In this document: positions 549-19,848 of the stretch, piece after piece
Numbering within the stretch: the first letter of the stretch is position 1
Layout of the letters: every line of letters begins with the position of its first letter
NCBI GenBank assembly: GCA_005777155.1
Contig: SXNM01000103.1
Coordinates: 1 to 40,083, forward strand
Length of the DNA stretch: 40,083 nucleotides
Direction of reading: 5' to 3'
Origin: Pseudomonadota bacterium
GTDB taxonomy: Bacteria; Myxococcota_A; UBA9042
Position numbers and translations under genes: made by a program
Notes under the pieces: model-generated
What the model was told of the DNA's origin: nothing
Database searches by the model: none
The model's input: the letters and a program-made list of their open reading frames with translations, nothing else

Positions 549-577
549 CTGGCGTCGACCTGCGAGATCGTTATGAT
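549..577 (+). promoter_or_regulatory. Candidate sigma-70-type promoter for the first cysteine-rich lipoprotein
   Basis: A -10-like hexamer TATGAT (572-577, 5 of 6 consensus positions) stands 17 bp downstream of a weak -35-like CTGGCG (549-554). Transcription would begin near 584, leaving about 35 nt of leader before the ATG at 619. In DNA this GC-rich an A/T-rich hexamer is uncommon, which supports the call; the weak -35 limits it. Confidence 0.45.
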
Positions 578-618
578 TGACTGTGGCTGTGTGTGCAAAC
601 ACGGCGGGGGGACGGCAG

Positions 619-3324
619 ATGATGAAAGCTCGCACTTTGAATTTCGTCGAAGGGACCCACACTCGCCCGCCCACAGTCGACCTGGTCCGCGGCGTGCGGG
701 CGCCGTCGCGGGCGAAGCCAGCCGCCATGGCCTTTGCGCTGGCGATCGCGTCGGCGTGCCTGAGCCTAGGATGTGGCAATGTCAAAGTGGTCGAAGACCC
801 CATCGACGACGCGACGGCGCAAGACAGCGGCGGCGGCGATGTGACCGGCGGTGGTGACGCGACCGGTGGTGACGCGACCGGTGGTGACGCGACCGGTGGT
901 GACGCGACCGGCGGCGACGCTGGGGGCAGCGACGGCGGTGGCAAGCTACAGTGCATCACCGACTACGACTGCAATGGCGTGCTCCTGGGCACGACGCCCT
1001 GCCGCCTGCCGATGTGCCAGGCTGGCACCTGCGCCTTGGTCGACACCGCAAAGGGCACCGCCTGCCAAAACCCTGGCGAATTGGTCGGCGAATGTGCGAC
1101 CTGCGGAGACGCCGGGCAGTGCGTCAAGGCGCCGGTTGATGACGGCAACCCATGCACCAAGGACTACTGCGACCAAGGCAAGGCCGTCGTGCACGAGCCA
1201 GTGACCGACCTGACGATCGCCTGCGAGGACGACGACGTCTGCTACGACAACGGCACCTGCGTCGAGGGCGAGTGCGCTGGCAAGCCCATCGACTGTAGCG
1301 ATGGCGTCGCCTGCACCTTCGACACCTGCGAGAAGGGGAGCGGCTGCAAGCACACGGCTGACGTCGGCGGCTGTGACGACGGCGATCCCTGCACCAAGGA
1401 CGCTTGTGACCTGAAGGCCGGATGCAAGGCCTCTGGCACCAACACAGGCGCCAACTGCGACGACGGGAACTCCTGCACCGAAAAGGACGCTTGCCTCGCC
1501 GACGGCAGCTGCGTCGGCACCTCGACCTGCGCCTGCAAGCTCGACACCGACTGCAAGAACGCCAACCTATGCCTCGGCACCATGGCGTGCGAGAAAGGGA
1601 TCTGCGTCACCAAGGGCACGGGCCCGGTCGCCTGTGACCAGAAGGGCAACACCGCCTGCGCCAAGCTGGAGTGCCAGCCCGCGACAGGCAAGTGCGAGCC
1701 GACGGCGGTCTCTGATGGCCTCGCCTGCGACGACGGCGACGCCTGTACGACCGAAAGCGGCTGCAAGTCGGGCGTCTGTGCCGGCAGCAAGCCGCCGCCA
1801 TGCAACGACAGCAACGACTGCACCAACGACAGCTGCGATCCGAAGAGCGGCTGCAAGCAGGTCGCCACCACGAAGCCCTGCCTCGATGACAACGCCTGCA
1901 CCGAAAAGGATAGCTGCGCCAATGGCGCCTGCGTCGGCGTGACCAAGGCCTGCGACGACGGGCTCGCCTGCACGGTCGACAGCTGCAACAAGACCACTGG
2001 CGCGTGCAGCAACACGCCGCAGGACGCGACCTGTGACGACAAGAACCTCTGCACCAAAGACAGCTGTGTGGCCGGCAAGGGCTGCAGCCTGACCGCCGAC
2101 GACAGCGCCAAGTGCACCGACGGCGACGAGTGCACCAACGACGCCTGCAAGGGCGGCGTCTGCGCCAGCGTCAACACCTGCCCGTGCAAGGCCGACACGG
2201 CGGCAAAGGACTGCGACGACAAGAACCCTTGCACCACCGACAGCTGCGATACCGCCGCCAAGAAGTGCGTCAACAGCCCCAACGGCGCCGATGGCAAGCC
2301 GTGCGACACCGGCGACAAGTGCCAGCAGCCCGGCAGCGGCGCCTGCGGCGGCGGGACGTGCAAGTCCAGCAACACGCACCTCGATTGCTCCAGCAAGTCG
2401 GGCCCCTGCGCCACCGGCACCTGCGTCGCGGCCACCGGCGCCTGTGTCGCCGCGCCCAAGGCCGACGGACTTGGCTGCAACGCCGATAGCTCAGCCTGCA
2501 CGGCCAACGACGCCTGCAAGTCGGGCACTTGCACGCCCGGCGTCGCGCTGTATTGCAACGACAGCAACCCATGCACCGCCGACAGCTGCAACAAGACGTC
2601 GGGCTGCGTCAGCATCGGGACCACCAGCAACCAACCCTGCGACGACGGCGACGCCTGCTCGGCTGGGGACACCTGTCAGACGGGCAAGTGCACCCCTGGC
2701 AAGCAGATTCCGTGCAGCGACGGCAGCAACTGCACCAACGATTACTGCAAGAACGGCGCATGCGTCGCCGAGCCCATCGCCAACTGCTGCGTAAAGACCT
2801 TTTTGCAGCACAAGTTCGACGTCAAGGCGCCGACCGACTGGGTCCTGACGCAGAGCAACGACCTCGTGCGCTGGCGCTTCCGCCTCGACACCGGCTTCGC
2901 CTACAGCGGGGCGGGCTCCCTGCACTACGGTTCGCTGGAGATGAAGGACATCATAGCCAAAGACGCAGCCGGCAGCCTGGTGCAAAACTCGGGGTCGGCC
3001 TACATGCCGCAGTTCCCGACAGGGACCGCCAGCAGCGTGACGCTGCGCTTCTGGCTGCTCTGGGACGCCGAGGTCAATGACGGCTACGACAAGCTGTCGG
3101 TCGTCACCAAGGTCGCCGGTAGCGACCTGCCGGCGATTCAGACCCACTGGACGTTGCCGAAGTTCCAGCTCGGCCCGAACTCGTGGCACCAGGTCACCGT
3201 CAAGATTCCGATTGGCAAAGGCACTCAAATCGGCTTCCTCTTTGACACCGTCGACGGCGCTGCCAACGAAAACTGGAAGGGCGTGTTCATCGACGACGTC
3301 GTGGTGGAAGGCCCTTGCGACTGA
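619..3324 (+). CDS. Cysteine-rich repeat lipoprotein with C-terminal MAM/jelly-roll-like domain
   Basis: Predicted 901-residue exported lipoprotein. The N-terminus has a basic stretch (RAPSRAKPAA), a hydrophobic core and a lipobox-like LSLGC with Cys52. A Gly/Asp/Thr linker follows, then about 610 residues (110-722) of cysteine repeats of the form C-x5-C-x4/5-C-x4/5-C with CDDG..CT cores, as in the Dictyostelium slime-mould repeat (Dicty_CTDC) type. The last 175 residues are cysteine-poor, with beta-strand-like segments and the end FIDDVVVEGPC, resembling MAM or immune-inhibitor-A jelly-roll domains. ATG 619 is chosen because GGGGGGA lies 6 nt upstream; a TTG at 577 would overlap the candidate -10 box. 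GTG 694 or ATG 727 are alternative starts that would still keep a signal peptide. The function is unknown; an adhesin-like or matrix role is inferred only from architecture. Confidence 0.8.
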   Translation: MMKARTLNFVEGTHTRPPTVDLVRGVRAPSRAKPAAMAFALAIASACLSLGCGNVKVVEDPIDDATAQDSGGGDVTGGGDATGGDATGGDATGGDATGGDAGGSDGGGKLQCITDYDCNGVLLGTTPCRLPMCQAGTCALVDTAKGTACQNPGELVGECATCGDAGQCVKAPVDDGNPCTKDYCDQGKAVVHEPVTDLTIACEDDDVCYDNGTCVEGECAGKPIDCSDGVACTFDTCEKGSGCKHTADVGGCDDGDPCTKDACDLKAGCKASGTNTGANCDDGNSCTEKDACLADGSCVGTSTCACKLDTDCKNANLCLGTMACEKGICVTKGTGPVACDQKGNTACAKLECQPATGKCEPTAVSDGLACDDGDACTTESGCKSGVCAGSKPPPCNDSNDCTNDSCDPKSGCKQVATTKPCLDDNACTEKDSCANGACVGVTKACDDGLACTVDSCNKTTGACSNTPQDATCDDKNLCTKDSCVAGKGCSLTADDSAKCTDGDECTNDACKGGVCASVNTCPCKADTAAKDCDDKNPCTTDSCDTAAKKCVNSPNGADGKPCDTGDKCQQPGSGACGGGTCKSSNTHLDCSSKSGPCATGTCVAATGACVAAPKADGLGCNADSSACTANDACKSGTCTPGVALYCNDSNPCTADSCNKTSGCVSIGTTSNQPCDDGDACSAGDTCQTGKCTPGKQIPCSDGSNCTNDYCKNGACVAEPIANCCVKTFLQHKFDVKAPTDWVLTQSNDLVRWRFRLDTGFAYSGAGSLHYGSLEMKDIIAKDAAGSLVQNSGSAYMPQFPTGTASSVTLRFWLLWDAEVNDGYDKLSVVTKVAGSDLPAIQTHWTLPKFQLGPNSWHQVTVKIPIGKGTQIGFLFDTVDGAANENWKGVFIDDVVVEGPCD
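838..915 (+). repeat. 15-bp in-frame minisatellite encoding GDATG
   Basis: Four tandem copies of gacgcgaccggtggt (856-870, 871-885, 886-900, 901-915) follow a diverged 18-bp copy at 838-855. The first three are identical and the fourth differs at two third-base positions. The unit is a multiple of 3, so copy-number change would lengthen or shorten the linker between the lipid anchor and the cysteine repeats without shifting the frame. Confidence 0.9.
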
Positions 3325-4990: not shown

Positions 4991-7900
4991 ATGACACATA
5001 GGCTACTTCAATTGCCGCGCTCCGTGGCGCGCACGTGCATGGTTCGATGGTCCAGGTGGGCCTCGATCTGGTCGGTGACGTGGTTGGCGACCTCCGCACC
5101 CCTGCTAGCGCTCGCCGCGCCGCCGCAGATCGCCAACGCCTCGCTCGAGGTGGCCGACGCCGCAGATCCGACCCTGCCCGCGGGCTGGTTCGCCGACGCC
5201 TGGGGCAACCTCTTGTATGGGCACGCGTGGTTGCTGAGCGGCGCCTTCGAGGGAAGTCGCGCGATGCGGGTGGCGGTGTCGACGGTGAGCGGCGAAGGCG
5301 ACGCGCGCTGGATGTCGGCGTCGTTCCCGGTCGCTGCGCAGGCAGGGCAGACCTACAGCCTGCACCACCACTACCGATCCGACGTCTCGACCGCGGTCTG
5401 GGCGCAGGCGCAGTCTGTCGGCGGCGCGCAGTCGCAGTGGATCTTGGTCGGCAACGTGGCGGCCAGCGCGACGTGGACGGCGCACGCGGCGAACGTCAAC
5501 CTGCCGAGTTGGGCCGACACGCTGCGCGTCTGCCACGTGCTCGGCCAGCCCGGCTTCCTGGAGACAGACGCCTGGTCCTGGCAAGAGAAGCTACCCGACC
5601 CGCCGCCGCCGATTCAGCCCACCGATCCGCCGCTGGCGCCGGCCTCGCCGAACGCTGGCAACGTGCTGCCGAACCCGTCGTTCGAGGACACCAGCAGCTA
5701 CAGTAGCTCGACGCCCAAGTATTGGTCCTTCGTCGTCTGGGGCGCCGCCAGCGCCACCACCAGCGTCTGGAGCCAGGGGCCCGCCCATCAGGGAGCGTTC
5801 GCGCTGCGCATGAGCCAGCCGACGTTGCCGAAAGATGGCGACGCCAAGTGGTGGAGTGATGCCATTCCACTGCTGAATTTTGGCGGAAAGCTGCGCCTGA
5901 CCTGCTACTACCAGGGCACCGCTGGCGTCTCGCTCTTGCTGCGAGCCGAAGATAAGGCCGGCCAGGGCGGTCAGACGCAGTGGTACAGCGTGGCGTCGGG
6001 GCCGGCGTGGGCGGAGTGGCGCGTGCTGTCGGGCCTCATCGAGCTGCCCAGCTTCACCCATCAGGTGCGCGTCGGGCTGCGGATCGACGGCACCGGCGAC
6101 GCGGCGGTCGACGACTGCAGCTTCGCCGCCGAGGTGGAGACACCGGCCGTGGCGGTGGCGCTTGGCAGCGACAACGTCCTCGTCAACCCCTCGTTTGAGG
6201 TGGCGCACCCCTGGGATCCGGGCCGCCCGGCGAGCTGGGACGGGGTGGTCTACGGCACGGCGCAGGGCAAGGCGACATGGCTAACCGGCGGCTTCGACGG
6301 CGATCGCGCCGTTCGTGTCGAGGTCTTCGTCAAGACCGAGGGCGAAGGAGACGGCCGCTGGCAAAGCGCGCCGATCGCGCTCTTGCCGAAGTCGGCAAAC
6401 CCCTGGCGGGTCTCCATCAGCGATCGCTACCGCACCAACGCCCCGACACGCCTGCGCGCCCGCGTCCGCTCGGCCGACGGCAAGCAGGCGCAGTGGCTCA
6501 CAGGCCCGGAGCTGCCGACCTCGCCCGCCGCTTGGTCGCAGGCGCAGTGGGTCGTCGATCTGCCGGACTGGGCGGCGACGCTGGAGGTGATGCACTCCCT
6601 GGAGGTCGCAGGTCAGCTCGACATCGACGCCGTCGTCGTCGTCGCCGGGCCGCCGGACCCACCGCCGGCGCCGCAAGATCCGCCCCTGTCGCCGGCCTCG
6701 TTGCTCGGCTTCAACGTGCTGCCCAACCCGTCCTTTGAGGTGGCCAGCGTCGGCGATGCCAAGCGGCCCGCCTACTGGCGCATGGAGGCCTGGGACGCCG
6801 CGCTCGGTTTCGCCACCGCCGTCTGGCTCGACGCCGGCGCCAAGCACGGCCAGCGCGCGCTGCGCCTCGCCCAGGCTGCCCTGCCGGCCAGCGGCGACGC
6901 TAAGTGGTGGAGCGATCCAGTGCCCGTGACCGATGTGGCGACCGACCTCCGCGTCACCTGCCACTACCAGGGCACGGCGGGCGCCACGCTGCTTTTGCTG
7001 GCCACCAACGGCAAGGCGCAGGCTGAGGCGCAGGCCAAGTGGTACACCGTCGCCGCCGGACCGGCCTGGCCGTCTTGGCGCCCGCTCTCGGGCACGCTGA
7101 CGGGCGCCGCCCAGCTGCCGGCGTGGACCAGCCACGTCCGCGTCGGCATGCGCATCGAGGGGACCGGCGTCATCGACATCGACAGCTGCAGCGTCGGCGT
7201 CGCGGCGCCGCCGACGCTGCCGCCGCCGCAGGAGCTCGGCGACATCAACCTCGTCGCCAACCCCTCGCTCGAGCTCGCCGATCCGTGGGATCCCAGCATG
7301 CCAGCCAGCTGGGTCGGCTTCACCACCGGCCAGGTCATCGGCAGCGCCAGCTGGCAGCAGGTGGGCGCTGACGGTGGGCGCAGCGGCCGAATCGTCATCC
7401 TGAGCATCGACCCGCAGCTCGGCCCCGAGGGTGACGGCCGCTGGCGCAGCGCCCCCATCGCCCTCAAGGCGCCGGGGCGGGTGGCGCTCCGCACGCAGTA
7501 CCGCTCCAACATCGCCTCGCGGTTGCGGATTCGCGCCAGGTCTGCCGACGGCAAGCTGGTCGAGTGGCGTAGCTCGAAGCCCCTTCCCCCTGCGACCGGC
7601 GCCTGGGCAGAGGCAGAGCTGGTCGTCGACCTGCCGGCCTTTACCGCCACAATCGAGGTAGAGCAGTCCATTGACGCGGTCGGCTACCTGGACATCGACG
7701 ACGTGCGCGTGGTGCGTGGCCCGCCCGGGCCGATCGAGCCCGAGCCAGAGACCGGCGCCCCCAGCGAACCCGAGCCCGCTCCCTCGATCTTGGGCGAGGC
7801 CAACGCCGTGCCGAACCCCTCGATGGAGCAGGCGAGCACGCTGCAGCCGAGCCTGCCCTGGTGGTGGGGCGGTGTCGCCAGCGGCGCGATGAGCGGCACC

Positions 7901-10810
7901 TGGACCTGGGTGCAGCCCGGCATCGACGGCGACCGCTGCCTCAAGTTGGTCGCCAGCCGCGAAGGCGAGCAGCCGGGGAGCGCCAGCATCGCGAGTCGTG
8001 GCTTCCGGCTCGCCAAGTCGGCGCCGTGGGCGAAGGCGCGCGCGATGGTGCGCTCGACGATGCCGGTCGAGCTCTGGCTGGTCGTGCACTCCGAGCAGCT
8101 CGGGGCCGACTGGCGCAAGGTCGCGGAGGGCGGCGGCCAGGGCACCTGGGGACCGCTGGAGGGAGTGGTCCCGGTTGGCGAATTCGCGCACGCCCTGCAG
8201 GTCGTGGTGCTGACGCGCGCAAAGGGAGCCCTCGAGGTGGACGCCGTGTCGCTGACCGCGGCGGCGACCCCGACTGGCATGGAGCCTGGCGCAACTGCCG
8301 GCGGCAACACGCCGCTCGCCGGTTTCGACAGCGGGCCGGTCGGGCCGACGACGACGGCTGATCCGCCGGTGCCAGAGACCGGCGGCTGCAGCGCCCTCCC
8401 CGGCGCTGGGGCGTCGCCGCTGCCCGGCCAAGCGCTGGCGATTCTGGCCCTCGCCGTGGTTGGGCTGGCGCTGCGTCGGCGCGGTGGGCAGGGCAGCGGC
8501 GCGGCGACGCGGCGGACGGTGGCGATGGCGGCGCTCGGGCTGTTCGCCGCGGGCGGCTGCACCGATGACCCCATTCGCGTCGATCCGTGGCATGCCCGCG
8601 CAACGGCGCAGGGTTTTGAGATCTCGCGCGACGGCAAAACCTTCCACAAGTTCTGGCCCATCGGCGTGAACTTTGGGCTCGCCATCCCCGGCACCGATCC
8701 CGGCGAGATGGAGGCGACCGGCACCCAGATTCGCCGTTGGCTCCAGGTGACGGCCTACTCTGGGGCCAACACCATCCGGACCTATACCGTGCAGTCGCCG
8801 GTGTTTTATCGCGAGCTGCGTGAGTACAACCTCGCCAACCCGAGCAATCCGCTCTTCTTGATGCAGGGCGTCTGGATCGATGAGCCGCCGCTGACCGACC
8901 CCGACTACTTCTCGGCAGCGGCGAACGCCTGGGTCGACGACGAGATCGCCAAGGTGGTCGCGGTGATCCACGGCGACATCACCATCCCGCCCGCCAGCAA
9001 GCTGGAGCCGCTCAACTTTGGCCGAGCCAACGGCACCTTCGAGGACGACGTGTCGCCGTGGCTCATCGGCTGGCTCTTCGGCCGCGAGATGGAGCCCTAC
9101 ACGCTAGAGTCGACGCTGGCCCTCCACCCGGAGGCGCCGACCAGCCACAAGGGCTCGCTGCTCTCGATAGACAACGGCAGCGCGATCACGGCCTGGATCG
9201 TCAGCAAGATGGACGACATCCTCCGCTTCGAGCGTGACAAGTACGGCCAGCAGCACCCGATCGGCTTCTCGAACTGGCCGACCCTCGACCCGCTGCTGCA
9301 CCCAACCGAGCCGAAGCTGCCGATCTCGGTCGAGGACACCTTCCAGGTCGATCTAGAGCCCATCGAGACCGCCGCCTCTTATACCGCCGGCGTCTTCATG
9401 AGCTACCACGCCTACCCGTACTACCCGGACTTCATCTTCCACGAGGCGGCGTACCAGAGCTTCGCCGACAGCCAGGGCAAATTCTCCTACATCGGCTACC
9501 TCGCGGCGCTGCGCAAACACCACGCCAGCCACGCGCTGATCATCGCCGAGGTCGGCCACCCCTCCAGCCTCGGCAACGGCCACCAGACGCCGACCGGCCA
9601 AGATCACGGCGACCTCGACGATCAAGAGCAAGGCCCGGCCGTGCTGCGCTCGCTCGCTGCCATCCACCAAGCCGGCCTCGATGGCGCCTATGTGTTTAGC
9701 ATCATTGATGAGTGGTTCAAGCGAGCCTGGGTCGTCGAGCGCGTGGAGTACCCGAGCGACAGGCGCCGCTTCTGGCACAACGTCATGAACCCGGAGCAGA
9801 ACTTCGGCCTCGTCGCGCTGCGGGCCGGCGCGCCGGGCAAGCGCATCGTGCTCGACGGCAAGGACGGCGACTGGGGGCCGCCTCAGGCCGTGGCAGGCCC
9901 CGCCCAGGTCGCGCCCGCCGGCGACGGCGCCGATGCCCAGCGGCGGCTGCGCGACGTGACGCTCAGCTCCGACGCGGCCTACCTGCACGTCCGCGTGCGC
10001 CTGCAGCCTCCACCGGGCGGCGTCTTCGACTGGCAGCGCCTGGACGTCGTCGTCGCCTTCGACACCATCGACCCGGAGCGCGGCGATGGCCGGCTCGATC
10101 CCGCTGGCAAGGTCGAGGTGGGCCGGCGAGTAGAGCACGTGCTGCGCATCGAGTCGCCCGAGGTTGTGCAGCTCTACGTCGATAAGCCCTACGATCTCTA
10201 CGGCATCTGGCACGGATTCCGTGAGCCCTGGCAGCTTTACCGCAGCGTCCGCAACGACGCCGGTGAATTCCGGCCGGTGCGCACCATCACCAACGCCTAC
10301 GACGCCATCGGGCCAGACGGCAACGTCACGACGCTCGGCGGGGTGCAGGTCCAGGAGACCGGCCGCTTCCGCGTCGGCATCGAAGCGCTGACGAGCCACG
10401 CCTTGGTCGCCATTGACCCGGCTGGCGGCGTCATCGAGATCCGCGTGCCCTGGAACTTGTTGCACTTCACCGATCCGTCGGCCGCCCAGATCGTCGACGA
10501 CGACGGCAGCTTGGGGCCGCGCCGAGCGAGCTCCGCCGCCACCCCGGCCGTCGCCGTCGCCGCCGTCGTCCTGGGCGGCAAAGACGAACAGGAGTCGGCG
10601 CTCGTCGACTCGGTGCCAGCCGCAACCGCGACCGCGACCGGCCACGCCGTGCCGGCCAAGGGCTGGGCGGTGCTGCCGATCGCGACGTGGAGCGCCACCC
10701 CGGCCTATCACGAGCAGACCAAGCCCATCGTCCAGGCCATGCAGGCGGGCCTCGGCGGAATCTTGCCGCCGACTATCGCTTGGCCGTCCACGGGCGGAGG
10801 TGCGCCATGA
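4991..10810 (+). CDS. Giant envelope protein: six carbohydrate-binding-like modules, internal MYXO-CTERM, glycoside-hydrolase-like barrel, CBM9-like domain
   Basis: One open frame of 1939 codons. A long signal peptide probably ends at ALA42. Six jelly-roll modules begin near residues 43, 224, 395, 575, 753 and 938, most opening with NPSFE-like motifs (the first with NASLE) and separated by Pro-rich linkers. A MYXO-CTERM-like tail follows: GGCS (1131-1134), helix 1148-1161, RRR 1162-1164. Then comes a second export signal ending in LFAAGGC (Cys1190). Residues about 1195-1610 resemble a GH5/GH2-type TIM barrel (WPIGVNFG); Glu1366 in LFGREMEP and Glu1520 in IAEVGHPSS are the likely acid/base and nucleophile. 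Residues about 1619-1880 (VLDGKDGDW) resemble a CBM9/DOMON-like sandwich. This looks like two proteins joined, either by loss of a stop codon or by a sequence error. The stop overlaps the next start by 4 bp. The glycan substrate is unknown. Confidence 0.75.
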   Translation: MTHRLLQLPRSVARTCMVRWSRWASIWSVTWLATSAPLLALAAPPQIANASLEVADAADPTLPAGWFADAWGNLLYGHAWLLSGAFEGSRAMRVAVSTVSGEGDARWMSASFPVAAQAGQTYSLHHHYRSDVSTAVWAQAQSVGGAQSQWILVGNVAASATWTAHAANVNLPSWADTLRVCHVLGQPGFLETDAWSWQEKLPDPPPPIQPTDPPLAPASPNAGNVLPNPSFEDTSSYSSSTPKYWSFVVWGAASATTSVWSQGPAHQGAFALRMSQPTLPKDGDAKWWSDAIPLLNFGGKLRLTCYYQGTAGVSLLLRAEDKAGQGGQTQWYSVASGPAWAEWRVLSGLIELPSFTHQVRVGLRIDGTGDAAVDDCSFAAEVETPAVAVALGSDNVLVNPSFEVAHPWDPGRPASWDGVVYGTAQGKATWLTGGFDGDRAVRVEVFVKTEGEGDGRWQSAPIALLPKSANPWRVSISDRYRTNAPTRLRARVRSADGKQAQWLTGPELPTSPAAWSQAQWVVDLPDWAATLEVMHSLEVAGQLDIDAVVVVAGPPDPPPAPQDPPLSPASLLGFNVLPNPSFEVASVGDAKRPAYWRMEAWDAALGFATAVWLDAGAKHGQRALRLAQAALPASGDAKWWSDPVPVTDVATDLRVTCHYQGTAGATLLLLATNGKAQAEAQAKWYTVAAGPAWPSWRPLSGTLTGAAQLPAWTSHVRVGMRIEGTGVIDIDSCSVGVAAPPTLPPPQELGDINLVANPSLELADPWDPSMPASWVGFTTGQVIGSASWQQVGADGGRSGRIVILSIDPQLGPEGDGRWRSAPIALKAPGRVALRTQYRSNIASRLRIRARSADGKLVEWRSSKPLPPATGAWAEAELVVDLPAFTATIEVEQSIDAVGYLDIDDVRVVRGPPGPIEPEPETGAPSEPEPAPSILGEANAVPNPSMEQASTLQPSLPWWWGGVASGAMSGTWTWVQPGIDGDRCLKLVASREGEQPGSASIASRGFRLAKSAPWAKARAMVRSTMPVELWLVVHSEQLGADWRKVAEGGGQGTWGPLEGVVPVGEFAHALQVVVLTRAKGALEVDAVSLTAAATPTGMEPGATAGGNTPLAGFDSGPVGPTTTADPPVPETGGCSALPGAGASPLPGQALAILALAVVGLALRRRGGQGSGAATRRTVAMAALGLFAAGGCTDDPIRVDPWHARATAQGFEISRDGKTFHKFWPIGVNFGLAIPGTDPGEMEATGTQIRRWLQVTAYSGANTIRTYTVQSPVFYRELREYNLANPSNPLFLMQGVWIDEPPLTDPDYFSAAANAWVDDEIAKVVAVIHGDITIPPASKLEPLNFGRANGTFEDDVSPWLIGWLFGREMEPYTLESTLALHPEAPTSHKGSLLSIDNGSAITAWIVSKMDDILRFERDKYGQQHPIGFSNWPTLDPLLHPTEPKLPISVEDTFQVDLEPIETAASYTAGVFMSYHAYPYYPDFIFHEAAYQSFADSQGKFSYIGYLAALRKHHASHALIIAEVGHPSSLGNGHQTPTGQDHGDLDDQEQGPAVLRSLAAIHQAGLDGAYVFSIIDEWFKRAWVVERVEYPSDRRRFWHNVMNPEQNFGLVALRAGAPGKRIVLDGKDGDWGPPQAVAGPAQVAPAGDGADAQRRLRDVTLSSDAAYLHVRVRLQPPPGGVFDWQRLDVVVAFDTIDPERGDGRLDPAGKVEVGRRVEHVLRIESPEVVQLYVDKPYDLYGIWHGFREPWQLYRSVRNDAGEFRPVRTITNAYDAIGPDGNVTTLGGVQVQETGRFRVGIEALTSHALVAIDPAGGVIEIRVPWNLLHFTDPSAAQIVDDDGSLGPRRASSAATPAVAVAAVVLGGKDEQESALVDSVPAATATATGHAVPAKGWAVLPIATWSATPAYHEQTKPIVQAMQAGLGGILPPTIAWPSTGGGAP
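10796..10801 (+). promoter_or_regulatory. Ribosome binding site fixing the start at 10807
   Basis: GGAGGT stands 5 nt before an ATG that overlaps the upstream TGA as ATGA (10807-10810). It settles the start of the second module protein and argues against the in-frame GTG at 10687, which would place 40 non-signal residues before the signal peptide. Confidence 0.75.
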
Positions 10811-12708
10811 ACCTCGGCTCAGGTGCGATCTCGCGACATGCCGGGCGCGGCCACGGCGTGTGGGCTCGGTCGAGCGCCAGCCGGCTAGCGCTGCTCTCCC
10901 TGCTGCTGCCAGGGCAAGCGCTGGCGCAGAACCTGCTCGGCAATGGCGCCGTCGAGACGCCGAACGCCGACGACCCGACGAAGCCGGCCCTGTGGAGCGC
11001 AGCCGTCTGGGGCACCGCCATTGAGGCGACGACGAGCTGGGCACCGGTGTCGCCGCCCAACGGCCGCTCGCTACGGATCGAGGTCACCTCCATCGTCGGC
11101 GACGGCGACGCGCTTTGGCGCAGCGAGCCGATCGCGGTCGCCGCCGACGGCGCCGTGCGGCTGACCGCCCGTTGCATCGGCGACGCTCCAGCTCGCCTGC
11201 TGCTTGAGGCGCGCAACGGCGGCGGCAAGGCGTCGTGGCTCGGCGCGGCGACGTTGCCCAAGACCTTGGTCTGGCAAGTGACCACCGGCACCGTGCAGCT
11301 GCCGGCTGGCACCAACAGCGTCCGCGTCGCTTTCGCGCTCCAGGCCACAGGCGTGGTGTCGTGCGACGATTTTGAGCTGACCAACCTGCCACCGCCGCCG
11401 CTGGCAGTCGACGGCAGCGCCGAGATCTTGGTCAACGGCGGCTTCGAGGCCGGCCAGCCGCTCGGACCCACGCCGGGCTGGAGCTTCGAAGCCACGCCCG
11501 GCGCGGTCGGCCAGGGGCAGGTCATGGCTGGGGGCGCGGCCGAAGGTGAGGCAGCAGAGGGCAAGCAATTCGCACGCATCCGGGTGGACAGCCTGAAGGG
11601 CAGCGTGGACGTCAAGTGGTGGAGCGACCCCATCCGCGTGGTGCCTGGCAAGCCGTCGTGGCTGCTCCACCTCAAGTGGCGCTCCCTGGCGCGAGCCCAT
11701 CTCTTCCTCTGGGAGTCCCGCATCGACGGCACCGGTGGTTTTCGCCTCCTGCGCCGGCTGCGCCCGGCCTTGCACCCGGACTTTCGGACGGCGCCGCCCT
11801 GGGAGACGGTGCAGGTCGGCTTCTCACTCGCCCCTGACGTGGTCGCTATACACGTCGCCGTCTTGCTCTGGCAGCCGGGCGTAGTCGACCTCGATGACCT
11901 CCGCTGCGCCCGCGCCGACGCCAGCGGCGATGCGAAGGGCGAACTCCGCGTCTCGTTCGCCATCGACTCTCTGACGGGCACTGTCGACGATGTGCTGGCG
12001 TTGTTCGACCTCGCAAAGGTGCGTGGCAGCATCTACCTGCCCTCGGCGCGCATCGAGGCCGAGGGCGCCACGGCGCTTGAGAAGCTGCGCAAGGCCGAGC
12101 TGCGCGGCGTCGAGCTCGGCATCTACGGAGAGGTGCCCTCAGCCTGGCTCAGCGCCGACAGCGCCGCCCGCCGGCAGACCGTCATTCGCGCCTTCGCCCG
12201 CTTGCGCGACGCTGGCCTGCATCCCAGCGGGTTCGCGCCGCCAGACGGCGTCTACGACGAGGCGGTGTCCGACGCGATCGACAGCCGCGAGGGCTATGTC
12301 CGCACGCTCGGCGATGGCGTCAACTATCCGCCGGTCGACTACTTGTCCTTGCAGGTCCGCAATGTCGACGCCTCGACGACTGACCTCGACGTCCTGCGCT
12401 GGGCGCAAGAGGCGCGGCGCCACAAGGGCTGGCTCATCTTGCGCTACAGCGGCATCGGCCCCGCCGGCGGCATCGACCTCGGGCGGATGTTGCGCGACAT
12501 CGAGGCGGTCCAGGCCGAAGGCGCGATCATCGCCCCAGTCGGCGAGGCGCTCGGTGCCTGGCAGACGCCCGTGTTGCCGGCGCCAGAGGCTGAGGGCGGC
12601 TGCAGCGCGCAGCGGACCAGCGGCGGTGGCGGCGGCTTGCCGCTCTTGGCACTGTTGGTCGCTGTCGCGCTGGGCTGGCAGCGCGCCCGCTCGCGCGGCT
12701 TCGCGTAG
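10807..12708 (+). CDS. MYXO-CTERM surface protein with two carbohydrate-binding-like modules and a degenerate polysaccharide-deacetylase-like domain
   Basis: Predicted 633-residue exported protein. The signal peptide ends at ALA40. Module A (about 42-195, GDALWRSEPIAV) and module B (about 205-365, VKWWSDPI) match the two module types of the upstream protein. Residues about 378-588 resemble a NodB/polysaccharide deacetylase barrel (VSFAIDSLTGTVDDVLALFD, later SGFAPPDGVYDEAV and GWLILRYSG). The TFDDG motif is replaced by FAIDS and the HxxxH metal pair is absent, so it is probably non-catalytic. The end is a canonical MYXO-CTERM: GGCS at 597-600, a Leu/Ala helix, then RARSR. This tail type is thought to be processed by a CAAX-like intramembrane protease (myxosortase) for surface anchoring. 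The start codon overlaps the upstream stop, implying translational coupling and a joint role on the same glycan. Confidence 0.85.
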   Translation: MNLGSGAISRHAGRGHGVWARSSASRLALLSLLLPGQALAQNLLGNGAVETPNADDPTKPALWSAAVWGTAIEATTSWAPVSPPNGRSLRIEVTSIVGDGDALWRSEPIAVAADGAVRLTARCIGDAPARLLLEARNGGGKASWLGAATLPKTLVWQVTTGTVQLPAGTNSVRVAFALQATGVVSCDDFELTNLPPPPLAVDGSAEILVNGGFEAGQPLGPTPGWSFEATPGAVGQGQVMAGGAAEGEAAEGKQFARIRVDSLKGSVDVKWWSDPIRVVPGKPSWLLHLKWRSLARAHLFLWESRIDGTGGFRLLRRLRPALHPDFRTAPPWETVQVGFSLAPDVVAIHVAVLLWQPGVVDLDDLRCARADASGDAKGELRVSFAIDSLTGTVDDVLALFDLAKVRGSIYLPSARIEAEGATALEKLRKAELRGVELGIYGEVPSAWLSADSAARRQTVIRAFARLRDAGLHPSGFAPPDGVYDEAVSDAIDSREGYVRTLGDGVNYPPVDYLSLQVRNVDASTTDLDVLRWAQEARRHKGWLILRYSGIGPAGGIDLGRMLRDIEAVQAEGAIIAPVGEALGAWQTPVLPAPEAEGGCSAQRTSGGGGGLPLLALLVAVALGWQRARSRGFA

Positions 12709-12788
12709 GTCGGAGCTCGGCAGCAGATGTGCGCGGCTAGAGAAGCTCGGTGTACTCGCCGCAGCACAGGTCGCGGAGGGGTCGAAAA

Positions 12789-12796
12789 GAGGGGGG
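12789..12796 (+). promoter_or_regulatory. Ribosome binding site for the 2348-residue lipoprotein
   Basis: GAGGGGGG ends 5 nt before the ATG at 12802. This supports that start over an in-frame ATG at 12727, which would put 25 charged residues ahead of an already complete lipoprotein signal. Confidence 0.6.
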
Positions 12797-12801
12797 TTCC
12801 G

Positions 12802-15800
12802 ATGCTCGGATGGTTGAGCTGGAATCTGCGCGGCGGCCTTGTCTTAGCGCGGTGGTGCGTCGTCGCATCTGCGGTCGCCGCTTGGTCCGGCTGCGGCGCC
12901 AAGTCCCCTGAGTCGGTCGACGGCGCGGAGGTACAGGCCGCCGTCGTCGCCGGCGACGACGGCGGGATCGGCTCTGAGGCTGGCCCCGACGGCGGAGTCC
13001 CACCCGACGGCGCCGAACCAGACGGCGCCGAGCTAGACGCTGGCGACGACGTCGCGGATCAAGGCGCCGCCACGGACGTCGAGGCCGCCGACGCCGCAGC
13101 GGACGCTGCCGACGCGCTGCCAGGCGCCTGCAGCACCAGCGCCGATTGTCCGCAGCCAGCCACCGGCTGCCTCGGCAACACCTGCATCGGCGGCGTCTGC
13201 CAGCCGCAGACCCTGCCGGACGCCACGCCGTGCGCCGACGGCGACCCTTGCACCGCCAAGGCAGCTTGCAGCGGTGGCGCCTGCAAGGCGATCGACGACG
13301 TCGACTGCGGCGACGACGACGCCTGCACCGTCGATGGCTGCGACGCCAAGACAGGCGCCTGTACCCACACCCCGGCCGCAGCGGGCGTCGCCTGCGAGGA
13401 CGGCAACCCGTGCACCACCGGCACGACCTGCGATGGCAAGCCCGATGGCTCCTGCCAAGGCGGCAGCAACAGCTGCGGCTGCAGCACGCTGGCCGACTGC
13501 GCCGCCTACGACGACGCCGACCTCTGCAACGGCACGCTCTACTGCAACCTCGGCTTGGCGACGCCGACTTGCCAGGTGCTGCCTTCCAGCGTCGTGGTGT
13601 GCCAGGGCAGCGGCGACGACGCCTGCCAGCAGACGCAGTGCTCCGCCTTCACCGGGCAGTGTGAGGCGCTGCCGGCGAGCGACGGCAAACCCTGCGACGA
13701 TGGCAACCCATGCTCGCTGGCCGAGACCTGCCAGTCCGGCGCCTGCAAGGCCCCAGTCAACACCTGCGCCTGCCAGGTGGCGGCTGACTGCATCGGCTCG
13801 GACGACGGCAACCCCTGCAACGGCACGCTGTACTGCGACACCTCGGCGCTGCCCTACAGCTGCAAGGTGAACCCGGCGAGCGTCGTCGTGTGCAACGCCA
13901 AGGTTGGGCCGTGCCAGACCACCGCCTGCGACTCCAAGTCGGGAGCCTGCGCGCCACTGCCGGCCAAGGACGGCCTCGCCTGCGAAGACGGCGTCGCGAC
14001 CACGGTCGGCGACACCTGCCAAGCCGGCAAGTGCCAACCCGGTGTCTCGACGGCGCAATGCAGCGGGGACGCCGACTGCGCCAAGCTCGAAGACGGCGAC
14101 ATCTGCAACGGCGTGCTGTTCTGCAACAAGCAGACCAGCAAGTGCGAGCTGAATCCGGCGACGGTCGTGAGCTGTCCGAGCGTCGATGACACCCAGTGCG
14201 CCAAGACGCTCTGCCAGCCGAAGACCGGCCTCTGCGCGCTGACGGCGCTGGCAGGCAGCCCCGCTTGTGACGACGGCAACCCATGCACCAAGGGCGACCA
14301 CTGCCAAGATGGCGGCTGCCAGAGCTCGGCCAACACCTGCCAGTGCCAGAAGGACGCCGACTGCGCCGGCAAGGAGGACGGCGACCAGTGCAACGGCACG
14401 CTGTTCTGCGACAAGCCGACCGGGCAGTGCCAGGTCAACCCCGCGACCGTCAAGACGTGCCCGAGCGTCGCCGACACCAGCTGCAGCAAGGCCGTCTGCC
14501 TGCCCAAGACCGGCCAGTGCGAGCAGAAGCCGCTCCCCGACCTCGTCGGCTGTGACGACGGCAGCCCCTGCACCGACGCCGACGCCTGCCAGGCGGGCGC
14601 CTGCGTTGGCACCAAGGTCTGCGCCTGCCAGGTGGACGCCGACTGCGAGGGCCAGGACGACGGCGACCTCTGCAACGGCACGCTCTATTGCAACAAGAAG
14701 TCGAACAGCTGCGAGGTCAATCCGGCGACCGTCAAGGTCTGCCCGAGCGTTGACGACTCCGCCTGCCAGCAGTCGAAGTGCCAGCCCAAGACCGGCCAGT
14801 GCGCGCTCACCGCGACGAGCAACGGCGTGTCGTGCGACGCCGATGGCAACCCCTGTACGCAGAACGACTTTTGCTCGGGCGGCGGCTGCAAGCCCGGAAA
14901 AGTCACCTGCGAGTGCAACGCTGACGCTGACTGCGACGGCAAGCAAGGCGACAACAAGTGCATCCCCGACATGTTCTGCGACAAGCAGAGCCACAGCTGC
15001 AAGCCGGCCCAGCAGGTGCAGTGCGACAGCAGCAAGGACGGCAAATGCGCCGAGACGGCCTGTGATCCCGTCGACGGCACTTGCAAGACCGCGCTGCTGC
15101 CGGTCGGCACCATCTGCGGTGAGAGCGCGATCTGTGCCGGCGCCCAAGTGTGCGACAGCAAGGGCGCCTGCGTGGCTGGCGCGGCCAGCGACTGCGACGA
15201 CGCCGACGCCTGCACCAAGGACACCTGCGACGCCAAGAAGGGTTGTACGTTCAACGCCTTGGATGCCGGTCCGTGCGACGATGGGGACATCTGCAGCGCC
15301 GGCGACCAGTGCGCCAAAGGCCAGTGCGTCGGCACCACCAAGGACTGCACCGACAGCAGCCCATGCACCAACGACGCCTGCGACCCGAAGACGGGTTGCG
15401 TCTACCTGCCGTCGGGCGCCACCAGCTGCGACGACGGCGACCTCTGCACGGTCGGCGACTTCTGCCTGCAGACGCTGTGCCTGCCCGGCTCGAAGGTGCT
15501 CTCCTGCGACGACGGCAACCCGTGCACCCAAGACGCCTGCGACGCCAAACAGGGCTGCGTGCAGAAGGCGCAAGACGGCGGCAAATGCGACGACGGCGAC
15601 GGTTGCACCAAGTTCGACGCCTGCAGCGCTGGCAGCTGCAAGGGGGTTCAGCTGAGCTGCGACGACGGCAGCGGCTGCACCGTCGACAGCTGCGACAAGG
15701 ACGAGGGCTGCCTCCACAAGGCGCAGGTCGGCAAGGCGTGCGACGACGGCAACGCCTGCACGGTCAGCGACGCCTGCATCAGCTCCGGGCTCTGCGCCAG

Positions 15801-18800
15801 CGGTCAGCCGAAGGTCTGCGACGACGCCAACCCGTGCACGGTCGACCTCTGCGACCCGCTGCAGGGCTGCGTCAAGAAGGAGGTCGTCGGCAGCAAGTGC
15901 GACGACGGCAACGCCTGCACTGTCAACGAGAAGTGCGACAAGGGCCTGTGCACCGGCTCGCCGCGCAACTGTGACGACGGGCTGGTGTGCAGCAAGGACA
16001 GCTGCGACAAAGACGCCGGCTGCTTGTACGCGGTGACCGCCGGCAGCAAATGCGATGACGGCAATTCCTGCACCGCTGGCGACCTCTGCGCCAAAGGCGG
16101 CGCCTGCGTGCCGGGGCCAGGGCTCTCCTGCGACGACAACAACGGCTGCACCACCGACGCCTGCGACCCGGCCAGCGGCTGCACCCACAAGGCCCTCGAC
16201 GGCATCGGCTGTAGCGACGGCGACAGCTGCACGCAGACCGACAAGTGCGTCGCAGGCGCTTGCAAGGGCGTCGGAAAGTCGTGCGACGACGGGTTGGTCT
16301 GTACCAGCGACGGCTGCGACCCGGCCGGCGGCTGCAGCCACAAGGTGCAGCAGGGCGCCACCTGCAGCGACAACGACGCCTGCACGCAGGGCGACACCTG
16401 CCTACAGAGCGGCTACTGCAAGCCGGGCGCGACGGTGAGCTGCGACGACAACAACGCCTGCACGGCCGACACCTGCGCCGCCCAGAAGGGTTGCCAGCAG
16501 GAGATCAAGGCTGGCGTCGGCTGCAGCGACGGCACCGCCTGCACGATCAATGACGCCTGCGACGCCAAGGGCGCCTGCATCGGCTCGCCGCTCAGCTGCG
16601 ACGACGGCAAGGCCTGCACCACCGACACATGCGACAAGCTCGGCGGGTGCAAGACGGTCGCCAACACCAACCAGCCATGCAGCGACAGCAACGCCTGCAC
16701 CACCGGCGACGTCTGTCTGTCGTCAGGCACTTGCGCCCCGACCGGCCAGCTGCCCTGCGTCGACGGCAACACCTGCACCACCGACGCCTGCGCCCCGGCG
16801 AGCGGCTGCGTCCATGCGGCGCAGGACAAGGCGAGCTGCAGCGATGGCAGCGCCTGCACTGCCAACGACAGCTGCAACGGCCATCAGTGTGTCGGTAGCC
16901 CTGTGAGCTGCGACGACAGCCAGACCTGCACGAAAGACAGCTGCGACAAGCAAAAAGGCTGTGTGTTCGCGCCGCAGCAGGGCGCGGCCTGCAACGATGG
17001 CAACGCCTGTACCGCCGGCGATCTCTGCAGCGCCGCGGGCACCTGTACGCCCGGCAGCGGCGTCAACTGCGACGACGCCAAGGTCTGCACCGCTGACAGT
17101 TGCGACGCCGCATCTGGATGCAAGAACACGGCTTTGGAGGCCATCTCCTGCAGCGACGGCGACGCTTGCACGGTGGCCGACGCCTGCGCCCAGGGTGCTT
17201 GCAAGGGCACGGTTCAGGTGTGCGACGACGGCAATGCCTGCACGACAGATGCCTGCGACAAGCTCAAGGGCTGCACCGCCACGGCAAAAACCGGCGTCTT
17301 GTGCAGCGACGGCAGCGCTTGCACCGGGCAAGACGCCTGTTCGAGCTTTGGCAAGTGCGTCGGGACCAAGGTCACCTGCAACGACAACAGCGTCTGCACG
17401 CTCGATCTCTGCGACGTCGACCTCGGCTGCGTGTTCACCAAGCTCTCGGGCGCGTCCTGCAGCGACGGCAAGCTCTGCACCGTCACCGACAGCTGCAGCG
17501 ACGGCGTCTGTGCGGGTGCCGCCAAGAACTGTGACGATGGCAACGAGTGCACTGCGGACAGCTGCGACGTGGTCAGCGGGTGCGTGTCGACGGCCACCGC
17601 CGTCAAGCCCTGCAATGATGGCGACGAGTGCACCACCGGCGACTCTTGTGCCGCGAGCAAGTGCGTCGGCGCAGACAAGAACTGCGGCGACGGCAACGGC
17701 TGCACCCTAGAGACCTGTCACAAGACCTTGGGCTGCCAAGTCTCGCTGGCCAAGGTGAATGAGCCCTGCAGCGACGGCGACGCCTGCACCGCCGACTGGT
17801 GCGACGGCCTCGGCGGCTGCGACAGCACGCCCCTGTTGGGCTCCCGCCAGCTCCCGATGGGCTACATCGTCGATGCGCTTGTGGTCGACTCTACCGGCAC
17901 GGCGTGGGCCGTCGGCAAGAGCGATAGCGTGGCCAACGGCGGCTTCATCGCGCGCCTCAAATGGAAGGGCAAGTCGCCTCCTTTGGCCTTGAACAGCAAG
18001 GTTAATCGCTGGACCCACGCGCTCGTCGTACCGCCGGAGGCGAAGCCACATGGCGGCTTTGCCGCAGGTGTCCTGGTCGCGGGTCGCTCCGTCCAGACTG
18101 ACACGCCACCGATGGTATTTGGCGGCTCATCGCCTTTCCTGACTCGTTTTACCGAAGCTGGAACGGTGGTGGTTGCCGGTTTCCTGAAACTTGGCGGCGA
18201 CCCGCAACCCGACGCGGTCGTGGCGCTCGCCGCCGACAGCCACGTGGTCGTTGGCGCCGCGGTTCGCTATGGCGCCGTCGCCAAAGGCGACTATGGATGG
18301 AAGGACAACGGGACGTTCGGAGCCAACCCCAATGGCATTTACCTAAGCACAGCCAAAGCGGACTTCGGGCCGCTTTCGCAGTACTTTTACGCAGTCGCAC
18401 CTGCTGGCATGGAGAGGCTGGCCGTTCACGACCTTGCGGTGCATCTGGACGCCAATGGAAACCGCTTCGTCGTGGGTCTAGCGACGATCGAGCAACAGCA
18501 CAACACCTCGACGTTTATGCTCCGCGCGCCCATCCTGGCGCTCGACAAAGTTGTCGCCACCCAGGTCTGGACGGCGGGTGCCAATGCCGACGACGGCTGG
18601 CGCCTTGCCGGTTACAACCGACTCCTGACGACCATCGAGGGCGGCTTCGACATCGTGCTCGGTAATCGCGAGGTCCGGCGGTACGGCCCACTCGGCACCT
18701 TCGTGTCGACGCATGCGGCGGGCGCCAATCTCCCCAAGCCGCTCCTGCACGTGGCGCAGCGGGGGAGGCAATTCGTTGGTGTCACCGACGAGACGCCGCC

Positions 18801-19848
18801 AAACTTCTACGTCATGCGCCGCAGCCTCAGCGCGCCGATGCACACCACCAAGCTGCTGACCGAGCCCAAGCTGATGGCTTTAGGGCCGGGCCGCGATGTG
18901 TTCTTCGTCGAGCGCTCGCAGGCGTACGGCATCCCGGTCGAGTCCGTCGAGCGCCGCGATCCCTGGGCACAGCAGAGCTGCTCGGAGTGCATGACGGTGC
19001 ACGCGGCAGGCTGCACCAATGGCAACGAGTGCCACCTGGACTCCTGCAACGCGGCCGACGGCAAGTGCGACGGCAGCCCGAAGGACGTCTACTGCGACGA
19101 CGGCAACGCCTGCACGACCGACGTCTGCACCGCGGGCAAGTGCGTCCATACGGCAGCCACGGCGAGTGCCCAGGTCGCTTGCCCGCTGGACCTCTCGAAG
19201 TGCAAGCAGGGCCTCGGCGTCTGCGGCGTGGGCGGCGTCTGCGCCGGTAGTCAGGGCAACGTCACTTGTGTCCCATCGTCTGGGGTCGGCAGCCCAGAGT
19301 GCGCCCTCACGCGCTGCTCGGACGACGTCGGCTGCATCTCGGGGAAGCAACCTGGCGGTTTCATCTGCAAGAAGTTGAAAGAGAGTCCAACGCACGCATG
19401 CACCGCCGACACTGCGACGTGCGTCGGCATGCTGGCGACGCAGGGCTTGCCGTTCAAGGTCGAGGGCGACCAAGAACATGAGACGAAGGCGACTCTGGCG
19501 ATTAGCCCCAAGACGACAGGCAAGTGGGCGCGCCTTACGGTCGACATCGAGATTCTCGCCTGCCAGGAATTCCTCGCATCTGACGCCTTCGGCGGTCTTG
19601 AGCTCGACGTCGGGCAGGGTCAGGTCATCGAGCTGCGAGCGCGCACTTCGCAGTGCGACAAAGACCTCGTGGGACGCAGCTGCTTCCCCGCTCTTTCGCG
19701 AAGGCTCAAGCTGACCTTTCCTGACGACGGCGTGCCCGTCGACTGGTCCTCGAAGCTGGCTGACGCCCAAGGCCCCTTCATCCTCAAAGCAAAGGTCCAA
19801 GCCGGCGTCGTCAAGATCCATAGCGCGGCGCTTACCCTTTCGAAGTGA
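12802..19848 (+). CDS. Giant cysteine-repeat lipoprotein (2348 aa) with propeller-like domain and cysteine-rich cap
   Basis: The signal MLGWLSWNLRGG...WSGC gives lipid-anchor Cys31, followed by an Asp/Ala/Gly-rich linker. Residues about 109-797 hold roughly 95-residue modules with a CNGTLYCD-type core: five clear copies and one degenerate (CIPDMFCD). Residues about 798-1678 are 17-18 dyads of about 50 residues, each pairing C-x5-C-x5-C-x4/5-C with C-x5-C-x4-C-x5-C half-repeats. Residues about 1680-2050 lack cysteines and have repeated Val/Ala beta segments with GG and WA/WT elements, suggesting a propeller. DPWAQQSC opens a second cysteine-rich section (about 2055-2200). The last 140 residues are an unrecognised beta-rich domain. 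Cysteine spacing suggests many disulfides, hence an extracellular rod. No enzymatic motif is seen. The stop overlaps the permease start by 4 bp (GTGA). Confidence 0.8.
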   Translation: MLGWLSWNLRGGLVLARWCVVASAVAAWSGCGAKSPESVDGAEVQAAVVAGDDGGIGSEAGPDGGVPPDGAEPDGAELDAGDDVADQGAATDVEAADAAADAADALPGACSTSADCPQPATGCLGNTCIGGVCQPQTLPDATPCADGDPCTAKAACSGGACKAIDDVDCGDDDACTVDGCDAKTGACTHTPAAAGVACEDGNPCTTGTTCDGKPDGSCQGGSNSCGCSTLADCAAYDDADLCNGTLYCNLGLATPTCQVLPSSVVVCQGSGDDACQQTQCSAFTGQCEALPASDGKPCDDGNPCSLAETCQSGACKAPVNTCACQVAADCIGSDDGNPCNGTLYCDTSALPYSCKVNPASVVVCNAKVGPCQTTACDSKSGACAPLPAKDGLACEDGVATTVGDTCQAGKCQPGVSTAQCSGDADCAKLEDGDICNGVLFCNKQTSKCELNPATVVSCPSVDDTQCAKTLCQPKTGLCALTALAGSPACDDGNPCTKGDHCQDGGCQSSANTCQCQKDADCAGKEDGDQCNGTLFCDKPTGQCQVNPATVKTCPSVADTSCSKAVCLPKTGQCEQKPLPDLVGCDDGSPCTDADACQAGACVGTKVCACQVDADCEGQDDGDLCNGTLYCNKKSNSCEVNPATVKVCPSVDDSACQQSKCQPKTGQCALTATSNGVSCDADGNPCTQNDFCSGGGCKPGKVTCECNADADCDGKQGDNKCIPDMFCDKQSHSCKPAQQVQCDSSKDGKCAETACDPVDGTCKTALLPVGTICGESAICAGAQVCDSKGACVAGAASDCDDADACTKDTCDAKKGCTFNALDAGPCDDGDICSAGDQCAKGQCVGTTKDCTDSSPCTNDACDPKTGCVYLPSGATSCDDGDLCTVGDFCLQTLCLPGSKVLSCDDGNPCTQDACDAKQGCVQKAQDGGKCDDGDGCTKFDACSAGSCKGVQLSCDDGSGCTVDSCDKDEGCLHKAQVGKACDDGNACTVSDACISSGLCASGQPKVCDDANPCTVDLCDPLQGCVKKEVVGSKCDDGNACTVNEKCDKGLCTGSPRNCDDGLVCSKDSCDKDAGCLYAVTAGSKCDDGNSCTAGDLCAKGGACVPGPGLSCDDNNGCTTDACDPASGCTHKALDGIGCSDGDSCTQTDKCVAGACKGVGKSCDDGLVCTSDGCDPAGGCSHKVQQGATCSDNDACTQGDTCLQSGYCKPGATVSCDDNNACTADTCAAQKGCQQEIKAGVGCSDGTACTINDACDAKGACIGSPLSCDDGKACTTDTCDKLGGCKTVANTNQPCSDSNACTTGDVCLSSGTCAPTGQLPCVDGNTCTTDACAPASGCVHAAQDKASCSDGSACTANDSCNGHQCVGSPVSCDDSQTCTKDSCDKQKGCVFAPQQGAACNDGNACTAGDLCSAAGTCTPGSGVNCDDAKVCTADSCDAASGCKNTALEAISCSDGDACTVADACAQGACKGTVQVCDDGNACTTDACDKLKGCTATAKTGVLCSDGSACTGQDACSSFGKCVGTKVTCNDNSVCTLDLCDVDLGCVFTKLSGASCSDGKLCTVTDSCSDGVCAGAAKNCDDGNECTADSCDVVSGCVSTATAVKPCNDGDECTTGDSCAASKCVGADKNCGDGNGCTLETCHKTLGCQVSLAKVNEPCSDGDACTADWCDGLGGCDSTPLLGSRQLPMGYIVDALVVDSTGTAWAVGKSDSVANGGFIARLKWKGKSPPLALNSKVNRWTHALVVPPEAKPHGGFAAGVLVAGRSVQTDTPPMVFGGSSPFLTRFTEAGTVVVAGFLKLGGDPQPDAVVALAADSHVVVGAAVRYGAVAKGDYGWKDNGTFGANPNGIYLSTAKADFGPLSQYFYAVAPAGMERLAVHDLAVHLDANGNRFVVGLATIEQQHNTSTFMLRAPILALDKVVATQVWTAGANADDGWRLAGYNRLLTTIEGGFDIVLGNREVRRYGPLGTFVSTHAAGANLPKPLLHVAQRGRQFVGVTDETPPNFYVMRRSLSAPMHTTKLLTEPKLMALGPGRDVFFVERSQAYGIPVESVERRDPWAQQSCSECMTVHAAGCTNGNECHLDSCNAADGKCDGSPKDVYCDDGNACTTDVCTAGKCVHTAATASAQVACPLDLSKCKQGLGVCGVGGVCAGSQGNVTCVPSSGVGSPECALTRCSDDVGCISGKQPGGFICKKLKESPTHACTADTATCVGMLATQGLPFKVEGDQEHETKATLAISPKTTGKWARLTVDIEILACQEFLASDAFGGLELDVGQGQVIELRARTSQCDKDLVGRSCFPALSRRLKLTFPDDGVPVDWSSKLADAQGPFILKAKVQAGVVKIHSAALTLSK
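15193..17830 (+). repeat. About 150-bp protein-coding tandem repeat (17-18 cysteine dyads)
   Basis: Successive CDDGxxCT units alternate between type A (example CDDGNACTVNEKCDKGLC) and type B (example CDDGLVCSKDSCDKDAGC). I counted 17 type-B copies plus one variant (CSDGDACTADWCDGLGGC) at the end. Copies differ at most non-cysteine positions, so this is an old array rather than a recent expansion. Confidence 0.8.

Follow-up and report, generated by a model that had tools for sequence, protein, structure and literature searches.

A probable surface polyprotein gene with an internal MYXO-CTERM-like tail and a second lipoprotein signal in a Myxococcota genome

Background

In MYXO-CTERM proteins the conserved Cys marks the site behind which MrtX cleaves, probably once this residue is lipidated, and the Arg-rich end is located in the cytoplasm (PMC11980579). 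Internal tails of this type have been reported as rare cases. In MXAN_5598 of Myxococcus xanthus an internal MYXO-CTERM within one ORF has been attributed to the fusion of two genes, and processing and surface anchoring were proposed by the authors for the N-terminal part of the protein (PMC11980579). In TraA/TraB of M. xanthus an exported envelope protein comes immediately after a MYXO-CTERM protein (PMC11980579), an order also found at the locus described here; TraA and TraB are, however, encoded by two overlapping ORFs and not by a single one. In the archaeon Haloferax volcanii, two formerly independent genes were fused to give HVO_0405, and the central tripartite site of the product is cut in vivo in mid-protein by the archaeosortase ArtA (PMC7157517). 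HVO_0405 differs from the protein studied here in that it is archaeal and the enzyme is unrelated, and no second lipoprotein signal is described for it in the text consulted (PMC7157517). A search of the literature on bacterial polyproteins with internal export signals returned nothing relevant, an earlier in silico paper on myxosortases lying outside its scope.

Here we analyse a fused ORF in a stretch of 40,083 nucleotides, the whole of which is referred to as the window, and compare its junction with those encoded in other Myxococcota genomes.

Results and discussion

The fused ORF combines an exported protein with repeated modules and a predicted lipoprotein (Table 1). As the original prediction had claimed, an internal tail and a second lipoprotein signal follow each other in one frame, and all predicted coordinates proved right. 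The tail shows the known signature of a Cys (in GGCS), a transmembrane helix PLPGQALAILALAVVGLAL and an Arg-rich end (RRR). With 10.7 bits against NCBIfam TIGR03901 it stays under the curated cut-off of 20, and by this rule it is no formal MYXO-CTERM member despite its tripartite features; the same cut-off is also missed by about 10 of 15 genuine-looking tails in the window's genome. A local HMM of the tail alone was discarded, as it was unspecific in the Arg-rich, high-GC window. The tail is not located at the extreme C-terminus, about 775 residues coming after it. In the second signal, RRTVAMAALGLFAAGGC, a positive n-region and a hydrophobic core precede a lipobox, the standard Lgt site, which ends in Cys; it is internal (residues 1174-1190 of 1939 aa) and not at the N-terminus of the precursor. 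At four other places in the window (577-3324, 12727-19848, 21382-26640 and 26628-31334) very long, Cys-rich exported proteins with many Dicty_CTDC (slime-mould) repeats are encoded, each of which begins with a lipoprotein-like signal.

Table 1. Coordinates of the fused ORF, its parts and its downstream neighbour in the window, and of another fusion encoded in the window's genome
Feature	Position	Strand	Remarks
Fused ORF, 1939 aa	4991..10810	+	ATG to TGA, open throughout
N-terminal export signal, residues about 1-42, ..WLATSAPLLALA/APPQ	4991..5116	+	read from sequence
Six beta-sandwich modules, about 165 aa each	5072..8305	+	repeats; one module modelled
MYXO-CTERM-like internal tail: GGCS, helix, RRR (residues 1131-1164)	8381..8482	+	read from sequence
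Tail, Cys1133	8387..8389	+	
Tail, helix	8417..8473	+	
Tail, RRR (residues 1162-1164)	8474..8482	+	
Inter-helix turn GGQGSGAAT, nine residues	8483..8509	+	predicted cytoplasmic by positive-inside rule
Second export signal, lipoprotein type, RRTVAMAALGLFAAGGC	8510..8560	+	read from sequence; junction comparison
Second signal, RR (residues 1174-1175)			
Second signal, LFAAGGC (residues 1184-1190)	8540..8560		
Second signal, lipobox Cys1190	8558..8560		
Predicted mature lipoprotein: (beta/alpha)8 GH-A-like domain and C-terminal beta domain	8558..10807	+	AlphaFold2, Foldseek
Downstream gene: signal peptide, same-family modules, C-terminal tail	10807..12708	+	
Downstream gene, C-terminal GGCS..helix..R tail	12595..12690		
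Second fusion in the window's genome: adhesin-like half, GCSA-helix-RRRR, type I signal (..APAAA), beta-barrel-like half	L073:1542-3338 (G000:C348)		

No Pfam matches were obtained for either half of the fused ORF. The modelled binding module (5636-6196; pLDDT 85.5) is a beta-sandwich for which Foldseek returned CBM22, CBM4, CBM16 and hyaluronan-binding modules, and by this predicted fold the six modules are CBM4/16/22-like, putative sugar binders. For the hydrolase half, i.e. the remaining 750 residues, AlphaFold2 predicted a (beta/alpha)8 domain and a beta domain (pLDDT 81). Its closest structural match is the GH157 laminarinase LaGH157 (PDB 9g5g; Foldseek E 5.5e-13), with an identity of about 12% and a low overall TM-score (0.34/0.47); GH2 and GH164 enzymes were also matched. 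We regard this half as GH-A-like and as a predicted glycoside hydrolase to which, among the modelled matches, GH157 and GH2-type enzymes are closest.

Each of the 16 comparable homologues is a hydrolase gene standing alone, with a lipoprotein-like signal of its own, and the lipobox is located at the same place as in the second signal of the window's protein (in L025 it is imperfect, with Arg before Cys); one further homologue, L034, is truncated by a contig end and was left out of the comparison. Because the hydrolase is a gene of its own in these homologues, the window's protein is a fusion, which supports the earlier proposal that a tail-bearing binding protein was joined to a lipoprotein hydrolase. 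Among its relatives no fused form of this hydrolase was found, and the window's junction is thus a singleton from one incomplete MAG; an initial scan of genome contigs with the hydrolase half had yielded no relatives. No orthologue of the N-terminal half was found beside a hydrolase gene in the window's order, related module genes in other genomes being located downstream of the hydrolase. The window's genome contains a second hydrolase-plus-module pair (L035, G000:C315), with the hydrolase first and two overlapping ORFs. In the hydrolase homologue L005 (G014:C4) one in-frame TGA lies over the match, and the region also shows an open frame of 807 aa (L024).

A separate hydrolase gene in all relatives is also what would be seen if the organism had two adjacent genes that were fused in the contig only, by an assembly or base-calling error at the stop codon. 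The assembly is a fragmented MAG of 467 contigs, and one substitution at codon 1167 would be enough for such an error; this codon is indeed CAG at 8489-8491, the position given in the original prediction. Its similarity to TAG, which had been taken as a clue to the loss of a stop, carries little weight, since 21% of the codons of the ORF are one substitution away from a stop, and one such codon is therefore expected in a short linker. The sequence around the junction argues against two genes. There is no start codon between residues 1157 and 1176, leaving a separate second half without a good start, a start at residue 1177 would yield a signal without positive charge, and the next gene is joined by a clean overlap of its ATG with the TGA of the fused ORF (ATGA). 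A frameshift or indel artefact was rejected as well: from 8362 to 8565 none of the three forward frames contains a stop, so that two genes separated at the junction could not result from a single-base indel in this region.

The same architecture was found in many other genomes. When 60 of the top-scoring MYXO-CTERM matches in genomes of the class were read individually (matches from the window's genome, G000, were excluded), 52 tails terminated 0-25 aa past the match and eight were internal, and all eight of the latter run directly into a second export signal, five with a lipobox and three of type I. A junction profile (A2) seeded with the window's junction together with the five lipobox cases was searched against 331 Myxococcota genomes; among the matches listed, about 41 full-span matches were free of stops versus 6 with stops (hand count). 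As E-values of short hydrophobic profiles are soft, sequences were read individually, and 26 out of 26 non-seed matches read, among them matches in the single-contig genomes G058 (5,045,683 bp) and G196 (10,327,335 bp), are genuine: the C-helix-RRR-helix leads to a lipobox Cys in 22 of them and to an AxA-type site in 4. Profile A2 favours both Cys residues, and their presence in its matches is thus partly due to selection; the sample of 60 tails is free of that bias as regards the second signal. The Cys-to-Cys distance at the junctions varies little, being 40-57 residues with a median of 47, and the window's junction lies at the margin of the set, with the longest spacing (57), the longest turn and the least hydrophobic second signal. 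A profile made without the window ranks the window's junction first (E 1.3e-4). Given that junctions of this kind recur in many further genomes, tail and signal do not, judged from these sequences, coincide by chance, and the recurrence of the architecture makes it very unlikely that the window's fusion is a mere assembly error.

In some cases the fusion itself appears to be conserved. Orthologues extending over both halves occur in different families for an amidase_3 protein joined to a PD40-type lipoprotein (L230/L238/L241), for a DUF4114 protein joined to a BNR-type lipoprotein (L226/L236) and for the pair L197/L237. The fused state therefore seems to be long-lasting and would have persisted while orthologues diverged to roughly 31-56% identity, unless the same neighbours fused independently. 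L187 (G003) and L224 (G019), which have the same kind of hairpin, are homologous in their N-terminal halves, whereas their C-terminal halves are unrelated lipoproteins, which suggests that such fusions formed repeatedly. By eye only, L189 and L190, in which a tail and a type I signal are combined with an OmpA-like C-terminus, look nearer to MXAN_5598; in the latter an outer-membrane barrel bearing an OmpA domain forms the second half, in contrast to the window's lipoprotein hydrolase with its own lipobox.

The best match of the curated MYXO-CTERM model in the window's genome is itself internal (L073/L049; Table 1; the labels adhesin and barrel were read from the sequence by eye). In the family of L073 the fusion is in frame in all 22 members searched, one of which is seen only from residue 271 due to a contig end, and the 22 aligned rows show no variation at the tail Cys; a fusion of this type is also present in G026. 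Phylum-wide, spanning stop-free matches of the L073 type were found in other families and in the single-contig genomes G058 and G121, and in several other families the two halves are adjacent genes. A fused protein of a Myxococcota family is also contained in a record titled Klebsiella pneumoniae MAG (L108, CAMDBH010000030.1); this title is probably wrong.

Fused and split states thus coexist for such pairs, and separate hydrolase genes in the relatives, although they correspond to one half of the finding (two separate genes) that the original prediction had named as refuting it, do not imply an artefact here. Likewise, a one-off stop loss or artefact is unsupported, as the junction type recurs across Myxococcota, single-contig assemblies and conserved orthologues from different families included. 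We therefore give an error at the stop codon very little probability.

We consider it probable, based on the sequence comparisons, that the window encodes a real in-frame surface polyprotein, from which a myxosortase would free the binding half and Lgt/LspA would free the hydrolase as a lipoprotein. After two neighbouring genes had fused to a polyprotein gene, the N-terminal signal of the product would export the binding half, and the helix of the GGCS tail would stop transfer in an outside-to-inside orientation, the Arg-rich turn remaining in the cytoplasm. Because this turn would be inside, the second helix would be oriented like a normal lipoprotein signal and re-enter the membrane from inside to outside. 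Myxosortase would cleave the chain directly behind Cys1133, so that a lipidated Cys at its C-terminus would anchor the binding half. At Cys1190 the chain would be lipidated by Lgt and cleaved by signal peptidase II, and the hydrolase would keep an N-terminal lipid as its anchor; the hairpin of about 56 residues would be discarded, and two surface proteins would arise 1:1 from one chain. The window's genome contains a myxosortase-family gene (L243; 110.3 bits against NF040914, core cut-off 100) and an lgt gene; an LspA gene was not found in this assembly, which is only 59% complete. Another Lgt-like match (G000:C281:999-1700) contains an in-frame TAA and may be a decayed copy.

If a real junction were left uncut, the product would be a single protein that crosses the membrane with two helices and exposes both halves on the outer side, the enzyme being tethered to the binding modules. 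Such a physical link could be of benefit to a hydrolase with substrate-binding modules, and some uncleaved protein stays on the surface upon loss of mrtX (PMC11980579). However, none of the lipobox junctions read lacks either Cys (in part through selection by the profile), and all 22 aligned rows of the adhesin/barrel family have the tail Cys, although an uncut hairpin would not need these residues; taking into account also the myxosortase-family gene and lgt in the window's genome, we consider an uncut product improbable. Of the two fates originally envisaged, spanning the membrane twice or being split by the sorting protease, we thus infer the split to be the likeliest outcome.

A further conceivable explanation is that the second half is mainly made from an internal start in the tail, with the Arg cluster doubling as n-region and the fused product being minor. 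Ahead of RRR, residue 1156 of the fused ORF is encoded by an in-frame GTG, and at several other junctions ATG, GTG or TTG is located just ahead of the Arg cluster. At 14 out of 28 lipobox junctions, however, none of these codons occurs in the zone that begins 6 codons ahead of the Arg cluster and extends through it, which disfavours separate initiation, and no purine-rich ribosome site was seen in the stretch 8435-8455 upstream of the window's GTG. An internal start as the main source of the second half is thus distinctly improbable, and a polyprotein cut at both Cys residues is the reading that we prefer.

Conclusions

With respect to the phylum as a whole, we lean towards the view that the Cys-helix-Arg-helix-Cys hairpin may represent a recurrent, selected cassette of the Myxococcota, by which a C-terminally and an N-terminally lipid-anchored protein would be produced in a fixed ratio through two lipidation/cleavage systems. 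In contrast to the published rarity of internal tails, about one in eight of the sampled high-scoring tails is internal, and each of these leads into a second signal. Fused substrates would offer a size-shift assay for myxosortase, and, since the chain also carries a lipobox at a distance of about 50 residues, they bear on the question of which enzyme lipidates the MYXO-CTERM Cys. If true, the arrangement would represent a bacterial surface polyprotein strategy, in which two lipoproteins lipidated at opposite ends are obtained 1:1 from one chain.
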